A stretch of 64,000 bases of DNA from Woeseiaceae bacterium (GTDB taxonomy: Bacteria > Pseudomonadota > Gammaproteobacteria > Steroidobacterales > Woeseiaceae). How positions within the stretch are numbered: the stretch's first letter is position 1; every line of letters begins with the position of its first letter. Under the pieces are notes generated by a model. It had not been told where the DNA came from, did no database searches, and saw nothing but the letters and a program-made list of their open reading frames with translations. This document shows positions 10,227 through 19,898 of this stretch, one piece after another. The stretch is from assembly GCA_028280615.1 (NCBI GenBank), contig JANQLK010000002.1, forward strand, positions 62,001 through 126,000, written 5' to 3'. The position numbers and the translations under genes are program-made.

Positions 10227-11552
10227 TCACCCCGCTCCGGCGCCCGGATTCGGTAGCGCGATGCGCACCTCGAGGCCCTCGTCGGGATAGTTGACGAGCG
10301 ACAGGCGGCCGCCGTGCGCCTCGACGATCTCGCGGCACAGCGGCAGGCCGAGGCCCGTGCCGGTTGCCTTGGTCGAGTAGAACGGCAACAGCGCGTTGCG
10401 CATGACCTCTTCGCTGATCCCGCCGCCCCGGTCCGAGACCGTGAACAGTGTCCTGCCGTCCCGGATCTCCGCCGCTACGACGATTGCTTCGGGCGGCGAA
10501 CCGGATTCGTGCGCGTTCTTGAGCAGGTTAATGAGCACCTGTTCGAACTGGGTCGCGTCGACCCGGCAGTCGAGAGCGGGAAGCGGCTCCGCGAGGCGGA
10601 ACTCGACCGCGTTTCGCAGGCTGTCGATGAACGCCGGCCAGTCGATCTTCTCGGGCCGCGGCGCCGGCAGTCGCGCGAAGCGTGCGTAGCTTTCGATGAA
10701 GTTCTTGAGGTGACTCGAGCGATCTTCGATCGTCGAGAAGATCGTCGCCAGGCGCTCATCGTCACCGCGTTTGCTGACCAGCGTCTGGCCCGAGTGCGCG
10801 AGCGAGGAAATCGGCGCAAGCGAGTTGTTGAGTTCGTGACTGATGACCCGGATGACGTTCTTCCAGGTCGCCACCTCCTGGCGGCCGAGCTCCTGGGTCA
10901 GCTGCTTGAACAGCAGGAGGCGATGCGGCTGCGCGTTGAGCGTGAATGCGTTTTGCGACAGGTGGTAGGTCTGCGGCTCGTCGCCCTCTATCGTGAACAG
11001 TCCGTCGCGGTCGGTGGCGACCGCCTCGCGGATGGCCGATGGAGCGCTCTCGAGCAGGGACTCGAAGCGATGGCCGTTGACGGGGCGGCCCCGATTGAAG
11101 AGCTGCCGGGCCGCGGCATTCGAATACACGACCTGGCCGTTGGCATTGATCAGGACCAGCGCCATGTCGGTCGTCTGGATGACGGTATCGAGCAGCAGCT
11201 CGCGCTGGAACAGGGACTGTCGCTCGTCGCGGAGCGCGCCGCCGAGCTTGTTGTGCGCCGTAACGAGTTCTCCGAGCTCGTCGCTCCGGTCATGCGCCAC
11301 GCTGATGCTGAAGTCGTTGTCGCGCAGGCTGTCCGCGCCGTCCGTGAGCGCTCGAATCACACCGACCGCCGGGGTCAGGATGCGCTGTACGCCAATCCAG
11401 CAGAGGGGCAGGGCAACGAGCAGGGCAATGACCCAGCCGAGCCACCAGGGCGAAAGCGCCTGCGATGCCCACGCGCCGGCAGCCGTCGCCAGCGCGAGCA
11501 GCAGCGTCACGAACAGCGCAATGCGGCCGGCGATGGAGAAGCGAAGATTCAT
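10227..11552 (-). CDS. Sensor histidine kinase (NtrY-like)
   Basis: Membrane kinase of 441 aa. Two N-terminal transmembrane helices (about 10–30 and 37–55) lead into a HAMP-like segment (to about 105), a PAS domain (about 120–225, with LLDTVIQTTDMALVLI), the dimerisation helix with the phospho-accepting His in VISHELNNSLAPI, and an ATPase domain with NLLKNAHES, VSDRGGGI and GTGLGLPL. The periplasmic loop between the membrane helices is only a few residues long, so the signal is likely sensed in the membrane or through partner proteins. It is the last gene of the exporter operon, directly after the response regulator, which is its evident partner. Confidence 0.9.
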   Translation of the reverse strand: MNLRFSIAGRIALFVTLLLALATAAGAWASQALSPWWLGWVIALLVALPLCWIGVQRILTPAVGVIRALTDGADSLRDNDFSISVAHDRSDELGELVTAHNKLGGALRDERQSLFQRELLLDTVIQTTDMALVLINANGQVVYSNAAARQLFNRGRPVNGHRFESLLESAPSAIREAVATDRDGLFTIEGDEPQTYHLSQNAFTLNAQPHRLLLFKQLTQELGRQEVATWKNVIRVISHELNNSLAPISSLAHSGQTLVSKRGDDERLATIFSTIEDRSSHLKNFIESYARFARLPAPRPEKIDWPAFIDSLRNAVEFRLAEPLPALDCRVDATQFEQVLINLLKNAHESGSPPEAIVVAAEIRDGRTLFTVSDRGGGISEEVMRNALLPFYSTKATGTGLGLPLCREIVEAHGGRLSLVNYPDEGLEVRIALPNPGAGAG

Positions 11553-11623: not shown

Positions 11624-12964
11624 CTACTTCTCGATACCGAACTTCTCCATTCGCCGATACAGCGCCTGGCGACTCATGCCGAGATCGCGTGCCGCTCGGG
11701 CTATGACGCCGTGCGCGCGGCCCAGGGCGGCGCGTATCGCATCGGCATCGGGCTCCTCTATGCCGTTGTGGCGGCCCGTCGGCGTTCCATCCGGCAGGTC
11801 CAGGTCGGCGACCGTAATCGTCTTGTCGCGCGCGAGCAGCGAGGCGCGGCGGATGCGGTTCTCGAGCTCGCGGACGTTGCCGGGCCAGGAGTAGTTGACC
11901 AGTGCGGTCTCGGCGTCACCCTCGAGCGTCACGCCGTCGTCGATGAAGTGATACGCGAGCGGCAGGATGTCGTCGGGCCGGTCGTTGAGCGGCGGCACGG
12001 CGAGCTCGATCACGTTGAGACGGTAATACAGGTCCTCGCGGAACCGGCCGGCCCTCACCTCGGCGCGAAGATCCGCATTGGTCGCGCTGACAATGCGCAC
12101 GTTCGCGCGCCGCGTCTTGCTGCTACCGAGGCGCTGGTACTCGCCCGTCTGGATGACGCGAAGCAGCTTGGCCTGGCCCTCCATGCTGAGATTGCCGATC
12201 TCGTCGAGAAACAGCGTACCGCCGTCGGCCGCCTCGAAGCGGCCCTCGCGCGCTTTTGCCGCCCCCGTGTAGGCACCGGCCTCGGCGCCGAACAGCTCGG
12301 CTTCCATGAGCTCTGCCGGCAAGGCGCCGACGTTGATCTTGACGAACGGGCCGTCCGACACGCTCGAGTTCGCGTGCACGATGTCGGCAAACCTCTCCTT
12401 GCCGGCGCCGTTCGGGCCTGTAATCAGCACCGGGATGTCGGACGGAGCAATTCGCGCCGCGATCGCGATCAGCTCCTGCATCGCGGTGCTGTCGAACACG
12501 GTGCCACAGAGTTCGTAGTCGGCTTCGAGACGCGCACGGTCCGCGCGCCGGGACAGCAGCGCGCGGCGGCCGTGCTGCGTGGCATCGCTCAGCTCGAGCA
12601 GATTGCGGGCCGTCGCGATGAGCTTGTCGTCATCCCACGGCTTGGCGAGGTAGTCGGCCGCGCCGGCACGCACGAGTTCCACGGCGGTCTCGAGATGCGT
12701 CCAGGCAGTTAGCAGGATGACGGGCAGGTCGGGATAGCGTTCGCGAATCGTGTGAAACAGGGCAACGCCTTCCTTGCCCGAGGTCGTGTCGTCGCTGAAG
12801 TTCATGTCCTGCACGACGAGCCCGACCGGATGCGCATCCAGAGCGGCCAGCCCCTCGTCCACGGTGGCCGCCGTCTCGCAGGGCAGGTCGTGGACCGAGA
12901 ACAGCATCGACAGCGCCGTGCGGACGCCGTCGTTGTCGTCGATCACGAGAATCACGGGGTTCAT
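11624..12964 (-). CDS. Sigma54-dependent response regulator (NtrC family)
   Basis: A 446-aa activator. The receiver domain (1–120) has the acidic pair in VIDDND, a phosphoacceptor Asp in LVVQDMNF and the Lys in LAKPWDDD. The AAA+ domain (about 145–375) has ITGPNGAGKERF as Walker A, GAYTGA as the sigma54-contact loop (Tyr variant of GAFTGA) and GGTLFLDEIGN as Walker B. A C-terminal Fis-type HTH ends the protein (ARDLGMSRQALYRRMEKFGI). The start is ATG 12964, since the ORF track extends 54 non-homologous residues upstream. It should activate the -24/-12 promoter found ahead of the first gene of its own operon. Confidence 0.93.
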   Translation of the reverse strand: MNPVILVIDDNDGVRTALSMLFSVHDLPCETAATVDEGLAALDAHPVGLVVQDMNFSDDTTSGKEGVALFHTIRERYPDLPVILLTAWTHLETAVELVRAGAADYLAKPWDDDKLIATARNLLELSDATQHGRRALLSRRADRARLEADYELCGTVFDSTAMQELIAIAARIAPSDIPVLITGPNGAGKERFADIVHANSSVSDGPFVKINVGALPAELMEAELFGAEAGAYTGAAKAREGRFEAADGGTLFLDEIGNLSMEGQAKLLRVIQTGEYQRLGSSKTRRANVRIVSATNADLRAEVRAGRFREDLYYRLNVIELAVPPLNDRPDDILPLAYHFIDDGVTLEGDAETALVNYSWPGNVRELENRIRRASLLARDKTITVADLDLPDGTPTGRHNGIEEPDADAIRAALGRAHGVIARAARDLGMSRQALYRRMEKFGIEK

Positions 12965-13010: not shown

Positions 13011-14222
13011 TCATACCGTCCGCGTCGCGATGGCCGGCGATACCTTCGACGCCCGCCGCGCCGGATCGGCAACCGCGATGAAGCCCAGCACCCACAGTGT
13101 CGCGATGCCGATGACGAGATAGACATAGTTCAGGCGTTCGATCTCGAACGCCGATGCCAGCGCATAGTTGAGTCCGATCGTGAGCGCCGTGCCGAGAATG
13201 ATGCCAATGGTCGTCATGAGCCAGTTTTCGAGCAGGAAGTAGCGAATGATATCGCGCTTTCGCGCGCCGACGGCCCGGCGCGTGCCGATCTGCTTGGTCC
13301 GCTGCCGCACCGTGAAGCTCGCGAGGCCGACTATCCCTAAGCCGGTAATGAGCAGCAACAGGCTGATCGCCGTGATCAACACGACCGCCATCGTGCGGTC
13401 GCCCTGGTAGCTAAGCGCAACATAGTCTTCGAGCGGCTTGACGTTGCGCACGAGTCGCGTGGTCCGGTCCGCCTCGGTCAGTGCCTCCTCGACGATCGGC
13501 ACGAGTTCGTCGCGCATACCGGGTTCGGTCCGTATGATGTAGCGCGTCCACGGCCCCTGGTTGCGTCTCGGCATCCACATCACGTTTTCGAGGTCGTCCC
13601 AGCTGACCCAGGCGCCGAGCATGTGTTCGACGATGCCGACGATCTCGGCCGAGTCGCCGAGCCCGTCGTAGATCAGCTTGCCGAGCGCGGGTTCGTCGGG
13701 AAACACCCGCTCGGCATAGGCGCGCGTAACGATGACGACAGGCGGCATGCTTCTGTACTCGGGGTCGCTGGCCGGGAGTATTTCAGTTTCACGAAAGGCG
13801 CGACCTTCAATGATGTTGACGCCGAGCGCCTTCTCCGCGTCTTCGCCGAAGCGATAGTAGTTCGCGGTCTCCCGCGGCGCGTCTTCGTCGAGACTTGCGC
13901 GATAGCCCGTGGCGCTGCCGGAGTTTGACAGGGGCAGGGCGCTCGCGCTGGCAACGGCGACCACGCCCGGCAGCGCCCTCAGGACCTCGAGGTCGCGCGT
14001 AATCGTTCTGTCCGGGTCGAAGTCATTGCCGAATCCCATGCTTTGCGCCGTCACGATGTTGTCGATATCCATCCCGGACGGACGGTTGATGTGCGCGAGC
14101 CGGTTTTGCGCCATGAACATGCTGTTTACGACGATCGCGAGCGTCAGCGCGATCTGCAGCGCGATCAGAACGGAGCCGGTCTTGTTGCGCCACATGGCGG
14201 AGAGGATTGGGCGGAATTCCAT
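13011..14222 (-). CDS. ABC transporter permease (MacB/FtsX type), second permease
   Basis: A 403-aa inner-membrane permease. An N-terminal membrane helix (TGSVLIALQIALTLAIVV) is followed by a large periplasmic domain of the MacB_PCD type (about 45–270) and three C-terminal helices (from AVVLITAISLLLLITGLGI onward). The cytoplasmic RRAVGARKRDIIRYFLLE motif is the ATPase-coupling helix of FtsX-like permeases. ATG 14222 begins the homologous part, and the 106 upstream residues in the ORF track are out-of-frame read-through of the neighbour. It is encoded 10 bases after the first permease, and the two probably form a heterodimer. Confidence 0.9.
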   Translation of the reverse strand: MEFRPILSAMWRNKTGSVLIALQIALTLAIVVNSMFMAQNRLAHINRPSGMDIDNIVTAQSMGFGNDFDPDRTITRDLEVLRALPGVVAVASASALPLSNSGSATGYRASLDEDAPRETANYYRFGEDAEKALGVNIIEGRAFRETEILPASDPEYRSMPPVVIVTRAYAERVFPDEPALGKLIYDGLGDSAEIVGIVEHMLGAWVSWDDLENVMWMPRRNQGPWTRYIIRTEPGMRDELVPIVEEALTEADRTTRLVRNVKPLEDYVALSYQGDRTMAVVLITAISLLLLITGLGIVGLASFTVRQRTKQIGTRRAVGARKRDIIRYFLLENWLMTTIGIILGTALTIGLNYALASAFEIERLNYVYLVIGIATLWVLGFIAVADPARRASKVSPAIATRTV

Positions 14223-14232
14223 GATGTCGTTC

Positions 14233-15549
14233 CTATTGAGTTTTGAGGTAGCCGGCCGGTGCCAGCTGGCAGACACGCCACGTCGGGTACAGGCCCGCGA
14301 GGATCGCGGACACGACGGCGAGCACGATCGCGATCGCGACGAGTTCCAGGTTGAGCCGCGCCGTCCGCTCGGCTTCGTCCAGCAACGAACGAACGCCGGC
14401 AAGGCCCAGGACCGAGAGGCCCAGCCCGAGTATGCCGCCCGCGACGCCGACCAGGCCGACCTCGACCAGGTGCTGGCGGAAGATGGCGGCCTTGCTTGCG
14501 CCGAGCGCTCTTCGAAGGCCAATGACCGGGGCCTTCGCAATGAAGCGCGCGAGGATCAGGCCGATCGTGTTGAACATGCAGGCGGCGAGAAACAGTACGC
14601 CGATGCTCATGACCGTCCAGATTTCGTTGGACGCGACCTCCTGGATCTTGAGCCATTCCGTGACCGTGCTGAGCCGGTTGTTGGTCGGTCGCTCGAAGCG
14701 GCCCAGCGCCTTCTGCTCGTCGGTGTAGCTGTCCAGCCAGGCCTGGTATTCCGCCCGCTGCGCATCGTCTTCGAGCTCGGCCCAGAACTGCACGTAAATA
14801 CACTCGCTCTGCAGCAGGTCGAAGTAACTGTTGATCGGCTCGTCTTTCCAGCAGTTGGTGTTGCCGGAGCCGTCCACCTCGCGCCGGTCCGTGATCGAGA
14901 ACGGCATGAACACGTCCTCGACGTCGTTGGTCGGGCCGTTGTTGACGTCGTAGAACAGCACGATCGGCTGCCAGCTATCGATGACACCCGTCACGACGAA
15001 GTTCTCGGTCCCGAAGCGGACCTCGCGCCCGACGCTGTTCTCGCCGCCGAACAGTGTGTCGTTGGTCTCTTTCGACAGAACGACGACGTTTTCAGCATTG
15101 TCATCGGCGCGCTGGTCCCAGCCCGAGCCGTACAGGAACGGCACGTTGAACATGTCGAAAAAATCCACGCCGGTCATACGCGAGATAGTCAGGAACGGGG
15201 CGACGTCCTCATTCTCGGGCACCACGGTAAAGACCGCCTTGCGCATGGCGGCGTGGCGAGTTGGCACAGGGGATTCGAGCAGTGCCATTGCATCGGGATG
15301 AGTCAGCTGCCAGGGCGCTTCCTCGGGTTTGTGATCGTCGTACGGCTCGTCGGGGCTCCAGCTATCGAGGCGTACCGCGAACAGCTGGTCGCTTTTCTCG
15401 GGGATAGGGTCGCTCGTGAGCGCGTAGACGAACGTCAGTATGGTCATGCACGCGCCGACACCGACGCCGATCGCGGCGACCATGAGCGCGGTGAGCAGCG
15501 GCTGTTTCATGAGGCTCAGCCGCGCGAGCCTCAGGTTGTAGATGAACAT
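14233..15549 (-). CDS. ABC transporter permease (MacB/FtsX type), first permease
   Basis: A 438-aa permease with the same plan as its neighbour: one N-terminal helix (LLTALMVAAIGVGVGACMTI), a large periplasmic domain, and three C-terminal helices with the coupling segment LRRALGASKAAIFRQHLVEV. The ectodomain is longer than that of the second permease and contains two cysteines (one in TNCWKD, one in SECIYV), which could form a disulfide. Together with the separate ATPase and the adaptor this makes a tripartite-type exporter in which the two permease subunits differ. Confidence 0.9.
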   Translation of the reverse strand: MFIYNLRLARLSLMKQPLLTALMVAAIGVGVGACMTILTFVYALTSDPIPEKSDQLFAVRLDSWSPDEPYDDHKPEEAPWQLTHPDAMALLESPVPTRHAAMRKAVFTVVPENEDVAPFLTISRMTGVDFFDMFNVPFLYGSGWDQRADDNAENVVVLSKETNDTLFGGENSVGREVRFGTENFVVTGVIDSWQPIVLFYDVNNGPTNDVEDVFMPFSITDRREVDGSGNTNCWKDEPINSYFDLLQSECIYVQFWAELEDDAQRAEYQAWLDSYTDEQKALGRFERPTNNRLSTVTEWLKIQEVASNEIWTVMSIGVLFLAACMFNTIGLILARFIAKAPVIGLRRALGASKAAIFRQHLVEVGLVGVAGGILGLGLSVLGLAGVRSLLDEAERTARLNLELVAIAIVLAVVSAILAGLYPTWRVCQLAPAGYLKTQ

Positions 15550-15559
15550 CGTCTGTCCC

Positions 15560-16279
15560 TCAGGCTACGGGCTGCATGGCCGGTTCCTCGACGTCCGCGG
15601 GCGCCGAGAACGGGTTCGACGTCGCGATGTGGCCGTCGAGCAGCTGCACGTTGCGATGTGCGCGGCGGGCGAGCTCCGGATCGTGAGTCACCATGACGAT
15701 AGTCGTGCCGTTCTTGTTGATCTCTTCGAGAAGATCCATCACCTGGCGCGCCATGAGCGAGTCGAGATTGCCCGTGGGCTCGTCGGCAAGCAGGAAGGCC
15801 GGCGTCCCGGCCAGCGCGCGTGCTATGGCGGCGCGCTGCTGCTGGCCGCCGGACAGCTGCGAGGGCAGGTGCTTCATGCGCGCGGCGAGCCCGACCTGTT
15901 GCAGTGCTGCTTCAATGCGCTCACGGCGTTCGGCGGCGTCGAAGCCGCGGTAACGCAGCGGCACGTCGACATTGTCGAAGATGTTCAGGTCGGGAATCAG
16001 GTTGAAGCTCTGGAAGATGAATCCGATCTTCTCGTTGCGTATCGTCGAGCGAGTATTGTCGCTGAGCTTGCTGACGTCCTGGCCGTCCAGGCGGTAGGTT
16101 CCGCTGGTCGCGGTCTCCAACAGGCCGGCGATGTTCAGGAACGTGGTCTTGCCCGAGCCGGAGGGGCCGGTGACCGCGACGAATTCCCCCGCATCGACGC
16201 TGAGACTCAAGCCGCGAAGTGCGTGCGTTTCCACGAGATCGGTGCGATAGACTCGACTGATGTCATTCATTTCCAACAT
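15560..16279 (-). CDS. ABC transporter ATP-binding protein (MacB/LolD-like)
   Basis: A 239-aa ATPase that drives the exporter. It has Walker A GPSGSGKTT, the Q-loop in FIFQSFNLIPDLN, the signature LSGGQQQR, Walker B FLLADEPTGNLDS and the switch His in VMVTHD. It is a stand-alone subunit of the MacB/LolD family and is not fused to a permease. It sits 35 bases after the adaptor gene and 10 bases before the first permease, consistent with one transcript and stoichiometric assembly. Confidence 0.94.
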   Translation of the reverse strand: MLEMNDISRVYRTDLVETHALRGLSLSVDAGEFVAVTGPSGSGKTTFLNIAGLLETATSGTYRLDGQDVSKLSDNTRSTIRNEKIGFIFQSFNLIPDLNIFDNVDVPLRYRGFDAAERRERIEAALQQVGLAARMKHLPSQLSGGQQQRAAIARALAGTPAFLLADEPTGNLDSLMARQVMDLLEEINKNGTTIVMVTHDPELARRAHRNVQLLDGHIATSNPFSAPADVEEPAMQPVA

Positions 16280-16314: not shown

Positions 16315-17634
16315 TTAGTCGCGCAGCAGGACGCGTTCCGCGCCCCTGAAGCGATCGATTTCCGAGATGATGACCTCGTCTCCGGCCTCGAGGCCCTGCA
16401 GAATCTCGACCTGCGAGACGCTGCGCGATCCCGTGACGATAGACACGCGTTCGGCCACGTCACCGTCGACCCGGTAGATCAGCCGACCGGCGCCGGAGTC
16501 ATAGAACGGTCCCGAGTCCACGACCAGCGTGTCCGGCTTGGCCTCGAGAATGATTCGCGCCGACACGCGCTGATTCTGGCGCAGGCCGGCCGGCTGTTCG
16601 CCGTTGAAACGCACCCGCCCGCTGACGGTCGAGTTCTCGACCTCGGGAGACACGGACACGAGGGTTCCGGCGTGCTCGGTGCCGCCGAACTTGATGCTGA
16701 CGTCGGCGCCGACGACCAGGTCGTCGGCATAGCTGTCCGATATCGACAGCTCGATTTCGAGGGCGCTCAGGTCCACGACCGTCGCGATCGGCGCGTTGGC
16801 GGCGACGACCTGCCGGCGTTCGACGGCGAGCGTGCCGACGATCCCGTCCACCGGCGCAAGCAGATTCAGCTCCTCGAATCGCCGCTCGAGATTGCTGACC
16901 GCGAGGCGCTGGCGATCGCGTTCCAGCCTGAGCCGCTGAAGCTCGAAATTGAGCATTTCTTCGTTCAGCGCGGTTTCCTGCTCGGCATGCGTCAATTCGA
17001 TCCGGCTGCGCTCGACGTCGTCGCGGGCCTTCTCGTAGTCCTGCAGGCTAATGACCTGGTGTTCCCAGGACTGCTCGGCGCGACGCAATTCGCGCTCCGC
17101 GGCCGTCAACTCGACGCGCGCGAGGTCGACGTTCTGCCGGCCTTCGAGCAGCCGCATTTTGTTATCGATCGTCTGCCGCTGGAGGTTGCTCTCGAGGCTG
17201 TCGAGCGTCGCGCGCTCGCGATCCAGTTCGTTGGCGAGTTCGGGGCTGTCGATGGTTGCGATCCGGTCGCCGGCCTTTACCGAGTCGCCCGCATTGACGT
17301 GCAGCGTCACGGTGCCCGCCGTCGCGGCGTAAACCGTTGGACTTATCGCCGCGACGACCACACCCTGGGCGGCGACGTCGCGTACGAAGGTCTGGTGTGC
17401 GACCGTCGCGAATCGAAGCTGGGCCCGTATCGCACTGCGATCGGTGCCCATCCACCGGGTCATGGCCGGGACCGTCGCAATCGCGATTGCAATGACGGCC
17501 GCGGCGCCGATCAGGTAAGGCCGAAGCTTTTTGCCCCGGCTCGTCTCGATGACCGTGTCCTGGGCGGCCGTATCACGGATGCCGTCCGGCTCGCGCGCGA
17601 CGTCGAGCCTGTCGACCGTCGCTCGCTCAGGCAT
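16315..17634 (-). CDS. Membrane-fusion (periplasmic adaptor) protein, HlyD/MacA type
   Basis: A 439-aa adaptor linking the inner-membrane ABC permeases to an outer-membrane channel. A cytoplasmic N-terminal stretch precedes one membrane helix (LIGAAAVIAIAIATVPAM, about 42–59). Next come a split biotinyl-lipoyl domain (TVTLHVNAGDSVKAGDRIATI and its partner LLAPVDGIVGTLAVE), a long alpha-helical hairpin (about 125–245), a beta-barrel and a membrane-proximal domain. The start is ATG 17634, which has AGAGG just upstream and overlaps the stop of the 77-aa gene, so the two are translationally coupled. No TolC-like gene is in the operon, so an outer-membrane partner must be encoded elsewhere. Confidence 0.9.
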   Translation of the reverse strand: MPERATVDRLDVAREPDGIRDTAAQDTVIETSRGKKLRPYLIGAAAVIAIAIATVPAMTRWMGTDRSAIRAQLRFATVAHQTFVRDVAAQGVVVAAISPTVYAATAGTVTLHVNAGDSVKAGDRIATIDSPELANELDRERATLDSLESNLQRQTIDNKMRLLEGRQNVDLARVELTAAERELRRAEQSWEHQVISLQDYEKARDDVERSRIELTHAEQETALNEEMLNFELQRLRLERDRQRLAVSNLERRFEELNLLAPVDGIVGTLAVERRQVVAANAPIATVVDLSALEIELSISDSYADDLVVGADVSIKFGGTEHAGTLVSVSPEVENSTVSGRVRFNGEQPAGLRQNQRVSARIILEAKPDTLVVDSGPFYDSGAGRLIYRVDGDVAERVSIVTGSRSVSQVEILQGLEAGDEVIISEIDRFRGAERVLLRD

Positions 17635-17860
17635 TGACCTCTCCCAGGCTCGCATACAGCTGGCAGCCGCTGGAGGGCCGGTCGAACCAGTCGCCGAGCA
17701 AGCTGCCGATCACCTCGGCGTGGTAGGCAATCTCGGGTCCGAGCGCCCGCCAGTCGCTGCCGAAGGCCAGCGTCCCCAGGTAATCGATGGCCGAGACGGT
17801 CGACTGTATCCAGTCGAGGAGTGCGCCGGCGCCGCAGATCGAATCGGTAACACAGTTCAT
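17627..17860 (-). CDS. 77-aa protein, first gene of the sigma54 exporter operon
   Basis: I do not recognise this family. The 77-aa product has three cysteines (MNCVTDSICGAG at the N-terminus and SSGCQLY near the C-terminus), a moderately hydrophobic, acidic middle (ALLDWIQSTVSAIDYLG) and no classical Sec signal. Evidence that it is real: a near-consensus -24/-12 promoter ends about 35 bases upstream, AGGA precedes the ATG, and the stop overlaps the adaptor start by 8 bases. Its place suggests an exported peptide substrate or a small accessory or signal protein of the exporter. It could alternatively be only a coupled leader ORF. Confidence 0.68.
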   Translation of the reverse strand: MNCVTDSICGAGALLDWIQSTVSAIDYLGTLAFGSDWRALGPEIAYHAEVIGSLLGDWFDRPSSGCQLYASLGEVNA

Positions 17861-17895
17861 GGATGTCCTGCTCGTATGGGCTTCGTACTGTCTGT

Positions 17896-17911
17896 AGCAG
17901 GAAGCGTGCCA
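17896..17911 (-). promoter_or_regulatory. Sigma54 (-24/-12) promoter of the exporter operon
   Basis: Read on the minus strand the site is TGGCACG-CTTC-CTGCT, against the consensus TGGCACG-N4-TTGCW. It has an exact -24 element, the invariant GG and GC, and exactly ten bases between them. It ends about 35 bases before the ATG of the 77-aa gene. The operon encodes an NtrC-family activator with a GAYTGA loop, which supports a functional promoter. Confidence 0.85.
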
Positions 17912-17966: not shown

Positions 17967-18010
17967 GTGTCCGATGTGTCCGCTGCGGACGCTTGCGGAC
18001 AGCTGTCCGC
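17967..18010. promoter_or_regulatory. Cluster of TGTCCGC/GCGGACA palindromes (putative enhancer)
   Basis: The stretch holds a perfect 16-bp palindrome GCGGACAGCTGTCCGC (17995–18010), a second dyad GTCCGC-T-GCGGAC (17978–17990), and a further TGTCCGA half-site just before it. It lies about 55–100 bases upstream of the -24 element, the distance typical for an NtrC-family upstream activating sequence. It is probably the binding site of the operon's own response regulator, although the divergent FHA gene could also be affected. Confidence 0.7.
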
Positions 18011-18194: not shown

Positions 18195-19391
18195 ATGAGT
18201 AACCAGGCTGAACGCGTATGCGCCAGTACCGGCGCGTTCGAGGCCGCGTTTCCCGCGGTCGCACAGCGTCATGACGTGGCGCTGGTTGCCCTCGGTAAAG
18301 CGCTAGACGAGTGCCGGCCGCTCGTGGCCCTGGCCGGCCACGGGCACCTCGAACTCAGCCACGTGCTGAGGCGATTCGTCTCGTCGCTCGACGACGACGT
18401 CGCATCGGCAACGATCAGCAGGATTCGGCCGAACGTCAAGAAAGGGCTGAGAGCGCTGGCCAGGGGGCTGGGCTTCGAGCCGGCCGGTCTCAGCGTGGCG
18501 GATCTTTACGGGCTCCTGAAACTGTTTTTCGAAAACCAGCGCGCGCACGGCCGACGGACCGTCATCGTCGTCGAACACGCGGCTCGGCAGCCGGACTGGC
18601 TGCTCGAACTCATCGCGCGATTGATCGAACGCGCAGCCGCGGAGAAGTGCGGCCTCATGATTGTCCTGAGCGACAGCCCCGAGCTACTCGAAGAGCGCCT
18701 GAGTGCCAACAGTTCGTCGTTCCTCTATCACCGCGCCCGACGGGGACTCGTCGAATTGCCGAGGTTCTCGGCTGACGAAACCGCGGCGTTCGTCCGGGAT
18801 CGGAATCGGGCGGCGGGCGAGAGCGACACGGATGACCGTTTCGATGTCGGCGCAATCGCTCGCGTACACGAGATTACGCGGGGTGTGCCGGACGACGTCG
18901 CGGCCCTGTGCTGCCGCTGCATCGTGCGCGCCGACCTCGACCGGTCGCGACGGATCGGCCACCGCGATGTCGACACAGCTGCCGAAGAGCTGAATCTCGC
19001 TGCGGAGAGCGCGTCGGCCCGGCTCGCCATGGACGCGACGCTCAGCGAAGAGCTCATGGGCCTCAACGTTGTACGCCATCGGCTCGTCGTTCGGTTCGAC
19101 GGCAACTGGGTCAGCGACCGTATGATCGAGAACGGCTCGATCCTGATCGGCCGCGCCGCGCACAGCGACGTGCGCCTGAGGAGTGCCGTTGTGAGCCGCA
19201 GCCACGCCCTCGTGAGCCTGACTGAGCTCGGCCACGAAGTTCGTGACCTGGGCAGCCGTAACGGCACCTACGTCGGCGAGCAGAGGATAGACCGGCACCT
19301 GCTCGCGCCCGACGACGTCATCCGAATTGGCAATTTCCTGATCGAGTATCAGTCCATCGCCGGACATATCGACATGCCGGTCGCGAGCTGA
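18195..19391 (+). CDS. Degenerate ExeA/AAA-like domain fused to an FHA domain
   Basis: A 398-aa cytoplasmic protein. The first ~270 residues resemble ExeA/GspA-type AAA ATPases in layout, but the P-loop position reads LVALAGHGHLELSHVL, with no GKT/S, so ATP hydrolysis is unlikely. VIVVEHA occupies the Walker-B position. The C-terminal part (about 300–390) is a clear FHA phosphothreonine-binding domain: ILIGRAAHSDVRL, SRSHALVSL, DLGSRNGTYV. The likely role is a phosphopeptide-binding scaffold or regulator. It is transcribed divergently from the sigma54 exporter operon across a 334-base regulatory region. Confidence 0.75.
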   Translation: MSNQAERVCASTGAFEAAFPAVAQRHDVALVALGKALDECRPLVALAGHGHLELSHVLRRFVSSLDDDVASATISRIRPNVKKGLRALARGLGFEPAGLSVADLYGLLKLFFENQRAHGRRTVIVVEHAARQPDWLLELIARLIERAAAEKCGLMIVLSDSPELLEERLSANSSSFLYHRARRGLVELPRFSADETAAFVRDRNRAAGESDTDDRFDVGAIARVHEITRGVPDDVAALCCRCIVRADLDRSRRIGHRDVDTAAEELNLAAESASARLAMDATLSEELMGLNVVRHRLVVRFDGNWVSDRMIENGSILIGRAAHSDVRLRSAVVSRSHALVSLTELGHEVRDLGSRNGTYVGEQRIDRHLLAPDDVIRIGNFLIEYQSIAGHIDMPVAS

Positions 19392-19562
19392 CCCGGCCGC
19401 GAAGGGAGCCTGGTCGCCGAAACCGCCCGCTTCCAGATCATCGGCGATCCAACCGATAAACCGACCTGTCTGGCGGGAATTTTCCGGGCAAACTGCTTGA
19501 CGATGTCTACTGCCGGTGACATCTTCGGTGTAAGTATCGGACGACACTCAAGGGACAGGGGA

Positions 19563-19898
19563 ATGAAAGACTTACGCAACTATCGGAAAGTGCTCATCGC
19601 CTCCGCAGCGGCCGCGGGGCTGGGCATTGCCGGCCTGGCGGCCGCCGACCGCCAAGCGATGGCTGACGAGCACGCGAATGACCACGAGCATCATCACGGC
19701 GCGGACGGGCACGCGAGCGAACATGAACATCATCACGGTGAAGACGGCCACGCCAACGAACACGCGCATCACCATGGCGATGACGGACATGCCGACGAAC
19801 ACGAGCACCATCATGCCGATGCGGATCACTCGAACGAGCACGATCATCACCACGCCGGCGAGGATGGCGATGACCACGAGCACCATCACGCGGGCTGA
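19563..19898 (+). CDS. Histidine-rich tandem-repeat periplasmic protein
   Basis: A 111-aa protein with a Sec-type signal peptide (VLIASAAAAGLGIAGLAAA, cleavage probably near residue 28–36) and then six to seven imperfect repeats of about 14–15 residues of the pattern H-x-H-H-H-G-x-D-G-H-A-x-E-H. This composition implies binding of Zn, Ni or Cu in the periplasm, for storage, buffering or delivery. The start is ATG 19563, preceded by AGGGACAGGGGA. The 22 upstream residues of the ORF-track entry have no support. The repeats are reflected in near-identical DNA units, so copy number may vary between strains. Confidence 0.8.
   Translation: MKDLRNYRKVLIASAAAAGLGIAGLAAADRQAMADEHANDHEHHHGADGHASEHEHHHGEDGHANEHAHHHGDDGHADEHEHHHADADHSNEHDHHHAGEDGDDHEHHHAG

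Follow-up and report, generated by a model that had tools for sequence, protein, structure and literature searches.

The locus examined here raises the question of what a short open reading frame (ORF) does at the head of an exporter operon. Within the window, the entire stretch of 64,000 nucleotides that was analysed, an ORF for a 77-aa protein runs on the minus strand from an ATG at 17860 to a TGA ending at 17627, exactly where the original prediction had placed it, and a putative ribosome-binding site, AGGA, was recognised by sequence inspection at 17866–17869 on the same strand. That prediction had described an unrecognised protein with three cysteines and no Sec signal, possibly a cargo or signal of the exporter, encoded behind a strong promoter and overlapping the adaptor gene by 8 bases. 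The ORF translates as MNCVTDSICGAGALLDWIQSTVSAIDYLGTLAFGSDWRALGPEIAYHAEVIGSLLGDWFDRPSSGCQLYASLGEVNA, and its cysteines lie at positions 3, 9 and 66. The adaptor ATG is located at 17634, giving an exact 8-base overlap with the 3′ end of the ORF.

Organization of the Exporter Operon

From the 77-aa ORF onwards, the genes follow on the same strand in the order adaptor, ATPase, two separate permeases, regulator and kinase, an order kept in the three other genomes that carry the ORF. The adaptor (16315–17634, minus strand) is an HlyD/MacA-like periplasmic protein of 439 aa with a cytoplasmic tail containing IRDTxxQD and matched PF13437, PF16576 and TIGR01730 above cut-off, while its second-best NCBIfam match was NF038010, DarC, far below the cut-off (83 vs 450). 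A MacB/LolD-type ABC ATPase (15560–16279, minus strand; PF00005), 84–90% identical in the three orthologous operons, is followed by two MacB/FtsX-type permeases, one matching the first half of ADOP (14233–15549, minus strand) and the other its second half (13011–14222, minus strand). With an HlyD adaptor, an ABC ATPase and MacB_PCD and FtsX permease domains, all above Pfam cut-offs, the neighbouring genes are, judged from their domains, a bona fide MacA/MacB-superfamily exporter. The motif IRDT(S/A)xQD or IADTSAQD was present in the cytoplasmic N-terminal tail of nearly all homologous adaptors, even those of about 40–45% identity.

The ORF stands first in an export operon with its own sensor pair, as had been anticipated, and Pfam placed this pair at the 3′ end of the operon. 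It consists of an NtrC-type sigma-54-activating response regulator (11624–12964, minus strand; PF00072, PF00158, PF02954) and a histidine kinase (10227–11552, minus strand) with HAMP, PAS, HisKA and HATPase domains, in which hydropathy revealed two N-terminal hydrophobic segments joined by a very short loop. BceS-type kinases have almost no extracytoplasmic domain, and the pairing of such a kinase with an FtsX-type transporter is a likeness to BceAB-BceS; however, the operon in the window differs from that system in having an adaptor, permeases split as ADOP halves and an NtrC-type regulator acting with sigma-54. The shared predicted sigma-54 promoter and the 8-base overlap, kept in four genomes, point to a single operon.

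Some features of the surroundings were also recorded. In one of the other genomes (G030), about 3.6 kb lies between the regulator and kinase genes (locus L059, G030:C9, 9629–13225), which are direct neighbours in each of the remaining three; among the ORFs in this stretch, one is carboxypeptidase-like and another encodes a secreted-looking protein. The divergent neighbour in the window (18195–19391, plus strand) encodes a protein with AAA-ATPase and FHA parts, whose similarity to the XrtA/PEP-CTERM-associated ATPase model stays below the cut-off; it is kept in G030 (44% identity), whereas none was found upstream of the operons of G021 and G005. An ORF at about 19497–19898 (plus strand) carries a tandem His-rich repeat (HEHHHGADGHASEHEHHHGEDGHANE...) and possibly encodes a small metal-binding protein.

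Promoter and Control Region

The strong promoter that had been proposed for the ORF was found at 17911–17896 on the minus strand, although it is of the sigma-54 −24/−12 type and not a sigma-70 promoter. The sequence TGGCACGCTTCCTGCT (TGGCACG-CTTC-CTGCT, with the GG-N10-GC spacing) is a near-perfect sigma-54 element, lies 51 bases ahead of the ATG of the 77-aa ORF; a single base varies between the four orthologous loci. An array of TGTCCG/CGGACA elements (17968–18009), situated about 60 bases further upstream, represents putative binding sites of an NtrC-type activator; the array is kept in all four loci while its flanks have diverged, and two of the four have an internal gap whose length is changed by about 11 bp, equal to one helical turn.

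The 16-mer GCGGACACATCGGACA from the array has one exact occurrence in the whole genome, and a search for further activator sites in the genome returned no sigma-54 site beside any near match examined; the regulator therefore appears to serve this operon specifically. Most simply, the putative array would be bound by the NtrC-type regulator encoded in the operon itself, with the operon as the principal target of that regulator.

Conservation of the 77-aa Protein

Orthologues of the 77-aa protein were detected with a single-sequence query in three other genomes of the same genus, with E values of 3e-14 to 5e-5. The family was present in 4 of the 73 genus genomes, always directly before the orthologous adaptor, and no further orthologue was returned from the remaining genus genomes or from searches of 396 genomes of the order and 369 of the class; since the three samples overlap, these counts are not additive. 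Searches of Pfam, NCBIfam, PHROGs and PDB sequences with the protein or its profile gave no credible match, in agreement with its description as unrecognised. A profile search of the class and order genomes returned sub-threshold partial matches only, and tblastn of a plasmid collection with the protein gave none. Three weak candidates were set aside: a second match in G021, which sits within an M20-peptidase-like gene, and a match at L008 in the genome contigs, which covers 16 residues of a FAD-dependent enzyme-like ORF, were chance, and a c-di-GMP-II riboswitch-like match within the ORF (17667–17756, minus strand), scoring 21 bits where 40 are required, is probably chance.

The four orthologues measure 77, 76, 77 and 77 aa, and in all four loci the ORF ends at base 8 of the adaptor gene, so that the predicted overlap recurs throughout the family. 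Only 12 of the 78 alignment columns are invariant, including C3, T5, D6, C9, D26, G29, G34, W37, P42 and C66, and the orthologues together with the frame-specific conservation define the pattern M[NE]C[LV]TDxxC...D26..G29....G34..W37....P42...C66. All three cysteines thus passed the conservation check that had been suggested for them, while the ten C-terminal residues beyond C66 are poorly conserved.

According to the original prediction, a frame not conserved as protein between relatives would be only a leader. On a frame-blind nucleotide alignment of the loci, the true frame gave 1.56 BLOSUM units per codon against 0.45 ± 0.14 in 500 column shuffles (maximum 0.90), none of which reached the observed value, and identity at second codon positions (53–72%) exceeded that at third positions (42–47%) in six comparisons. 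Since the frame is conserved as protein, the ORF is not merely a leader. dN values of 0.57–0.96 for the 77-aa protein against 0.16–0.27 for the adaptor indicated a divergence about four times faster, dN/dS values being rough because dS is near saturation in both genes. Judged by these comparisons, the ORF encodes a genuine, fast-evolving protein.

A related explanation is that translation of the ORF mainly delivers ribosomes to the adaptor start by termination-reinitiation, its product being of little matter. The overlap kept in four loci is consistent with this role, as are the poor conservation of the last ten residues and the putative adaptor ribosome-binding site within the last codons of the ORF, GGGAGAGG in the window (17638–17645, minus strand), all four loci having a purine-rich stretch ahead of the adaptor ATG. 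However, the 12 invariant columns, with C3, C9, W37 and C66 among them, and the selection on second codon positions concern the protein itself, and translation of most homologous adaptors does without a leader. We thus consider this explanation improbable.

Predicted Fold and Cellular Location

The 77-aa family is acidic, with a pI of 4.0–4.4 and a charge of about −6 to −9. A signal peptide or transmembrane segment was absent from all four members, whose best 19-residue mean hydropathy (KD19) was 0.77–1.13. The highest of these values belongs to the protein from the window, in which the first basic residue is R38; the lack of a Sec signal was thus borne out, neither a basic N-terminus nor a hydrophobic core being present.

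Two stretches show helix-periodic amphipathicity (columns 9–33, P 0.0065; columns 42–61, P 0.005), suggesting a helical hairpin. An AlphaFold2 single-sequence model was helical at low confidence (pLDDT 61), and a Foldseek comparison of this model with the PDB returned no match; given the low confidence of the model, it is the periodicity from which the hairpin is drawn. We infer that a hairpin turning at G34-W37-P42 would bring C3/C9 and C66 together, which suggests a thiol or metal site if the protein is cytoplasmic, whereas a disulfide among these cysteines would point to export.

In this respect, the protein might be a cytoplasmic sensor whose C3, C9 and C66 coordinate a metal or are the target of an oxidant or electrophile, the activity of the NtrC-type regulator or of the kinase being tuned in this way. 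The three cysteines are invariant in a family that has kept so few columns, and the operon has a two-component system of its own; yet homologous two-component/exporter operons occur without the 77-aa ORF, and the protein matched no known family. Such a sensor appears very unlikely to us.

Comparison with Known MacB-Type Systems

The original prediction proposed a precursor or cargo of the exporter and, as an alternative, an accessory sensor. In its present form, the cargo explanation holds that the protein is a leaderless peptide, bacteriocin-like, phenol-soluble-modulin-like or a pheromone, that is exported by its own MacA/ADOP-type system and monitored by the kinase. The position of the ORF at the head of a dedicated, self-regulated exporter operon was upheld and speaks for it, together with the fast divergence of the protein and the conservation of cysteines at both of its ends. 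However, MacB-type exporters take their substrates from the periplasm and not across the inner membrane (PMC5985334), and an unsignalled 77-aa protein is therefore a poor cargo. Enterotoxin STII, a peptide cargo of MacAB-TolC, is likewise a small cysteine-containing peptide linked to a MacAB-type exporter, but its Sec export and Dsb folding precede MacAB (PMC5985334). The 77-aa protein, in which the signal is absent, is not a Sec-type cargo.

Darobactin offers a second comparison, since DarA/DarBCD also combines a small ORF with an HlyD-type adaptor, an FtsX-type permease and an ATPase, and the precursor that goes with DarBCD is synthesised in the cytoplasm (PMC9055067). The match of the adaptor to DarC favours a similar cargo here, although its score is the distant one given above and the operon in the window has no radical SAM enzyme. 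Pfam revealed no evident modifying enzyme, C39 peptidase domain or immunity gene in the operon, which, with the divergent FHA/AAA gene, comprises the adaptor, ATPase, two permeases, response regulator and histidine kinase only. Without such a maturation enzyme encoded alongside, the 77-aa protein is not a daropeptide-like RiPP precursor. Taking both sides together, and with the ORF missing from many homologous exporters (see below), the cargo explanation is weakened and we regard it as somewhat unlikely.

Small proteins co-transcribed with MacB-superfamily transporters are known from YknW and VraH (PMC5985334). The operon predicted for the 77-aa ORF recalls that of YknW in Bacillus YknWXYZ, a small accessory protein whose gene is transcribed together with a MacA/MacB-type exporter, and VraH modulates a MacB-superfamily transporter, VraDE, linked to a two-component system (PMC5985334). 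Both are membrane proteins, VraH with two transmembrane helices, whereas hydropathy gave no membrane-spanning helix for the 77-aa protein; BceAB-type transporters such as VraDE are moreover without an adaptor, unlike the operon in the window. YknW is likened to the 77-aa protein by role, no Pfam family having been matched. By architecture the protein is not a homologue of YknW or VraH, and in the absence of transmembrane helices it may be said to work like them rather than to be one of them.

A Recurring Small-ORF Slot

A census of 86 loci with related adaptors yielded 49 whose sigma-54 site reached a consensus score of 0.88 or more. The distance from promoter to adaptor, estimated from the alignment start, was bimodal in these 49 operons, being at most 118 nt in 36 and 209–354 nt in 13. 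No small ORF was present in the 36, while each of the 13 carried one ORF of 63–85 aa between promoter and adaptor. As 36 of 49 sigma-54-driven homologous exporters do without it, the ORF is dispensable for the basic pump, and the same absence counts against a cargo.

Four of the 13 slot ORFs belong to the 77-aa family. The other nine (L014, L019/L020, L022, L023, L073, L088/L089 and L097) encode proteins whose N-terminal segment is hydrophobic and resembles a signal or TM segment (KD19 1.6–2.4), usually with a cysteine in the tail. Seven representatives of these nine were scanned with Pfam and gave no family, the one weak match being chance, and their alignment with the 77-aa family was not beyond chance; a few pairs among them align mutually, which may reflect hydrophobic composition only. 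Those of L014, L022, L023, L073 and L097 are each known from a single genome, while for two, protein-level conservation extends to a second genome, with dN/dS of about 0.24 (L019/L020) and 0.31 (L088/L089).

In the adaptor tree, the four loci with the 77-aa family form one clade (100/100), and the supported neighbours L014 and L022 also carry a small ORF, of the hydrophobic type, a label that changes at least four times on supported branches. The slot thus probably predates the 77-aa family, its occupant having been replaced or having diverged beyond recognition. The open-access literature searched contained no description of such a small-ORF slot between promoter and adaptor.

The filling of the slot in other lineages by different small, often cysteine-containing and secretable-looking proteins is a further point in favour of cargo. 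Extended to the whole slot, this explanation would make it a variable site for fast-evolving signals or cargo, with kinase and transporter monitoring their own secreted peptide, and the 77-aa family would be a leaderless helical-hairpin peptide closed by its cysteines and exported without Sec. We consider this extended version distinctly unlikely.

Proposed Role of the 77-aa Protein

Our tentative preference, on circumstantial grounds and at a little less than even probability, is that the 77-aa protein is an accessory modulator at the cytoplasmic face of the exporter, similar in role to YknW and VraH. It is favoured because the review describes small co-transcribed partners of MacB-superfamily transporters (PMC5985334) and because a conventional cargo is argued against. 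The confinement of the orthologues to this exporter, with an identical overlap, and the occupation of the same slot in other lineages by unrelated small hydrophobic proteins agree with an accessory role. On the other hand, the fast evolution of the protein suits a cargo as well as a helper, and YknW and VraH are membrane proteins while the 77-aa protein is not.

In the proposed mechanism, the NtrC-type regulator would bind the TGTCCG array and open the sigma-54 promoter. The 77-aa protein would be translated first and the ribosome would re-initiate at the overlapping adaptor ATG, so that the two proteins would be made in step. The product, predicted from its sequence to remain in the cytoplasm, would form a hairpin of amphipathic helices, at the open end of which C3/C9 would meet C66 and may make up a thiol, disulfide or metal site. 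From the cytoplasmic side it may then modulate the exporter or the kinase, for example via the IRDTxxQD tail of the adaptor, the ATPase or the kinase itself.

The analysis, computational throughout, defines an unannotated family of small proteins and a recurring, apparently undescribed slot, occupied in 13 of 49 sigma-54-driven MacA/ADOP operons by proteins that are unrelated in sequence in most lineages. As modulators, the slot proteins would reveal the way in which MacB-type pumps with split permeases are tuned; as cargo, they would point directly to the substrates of these pumps.
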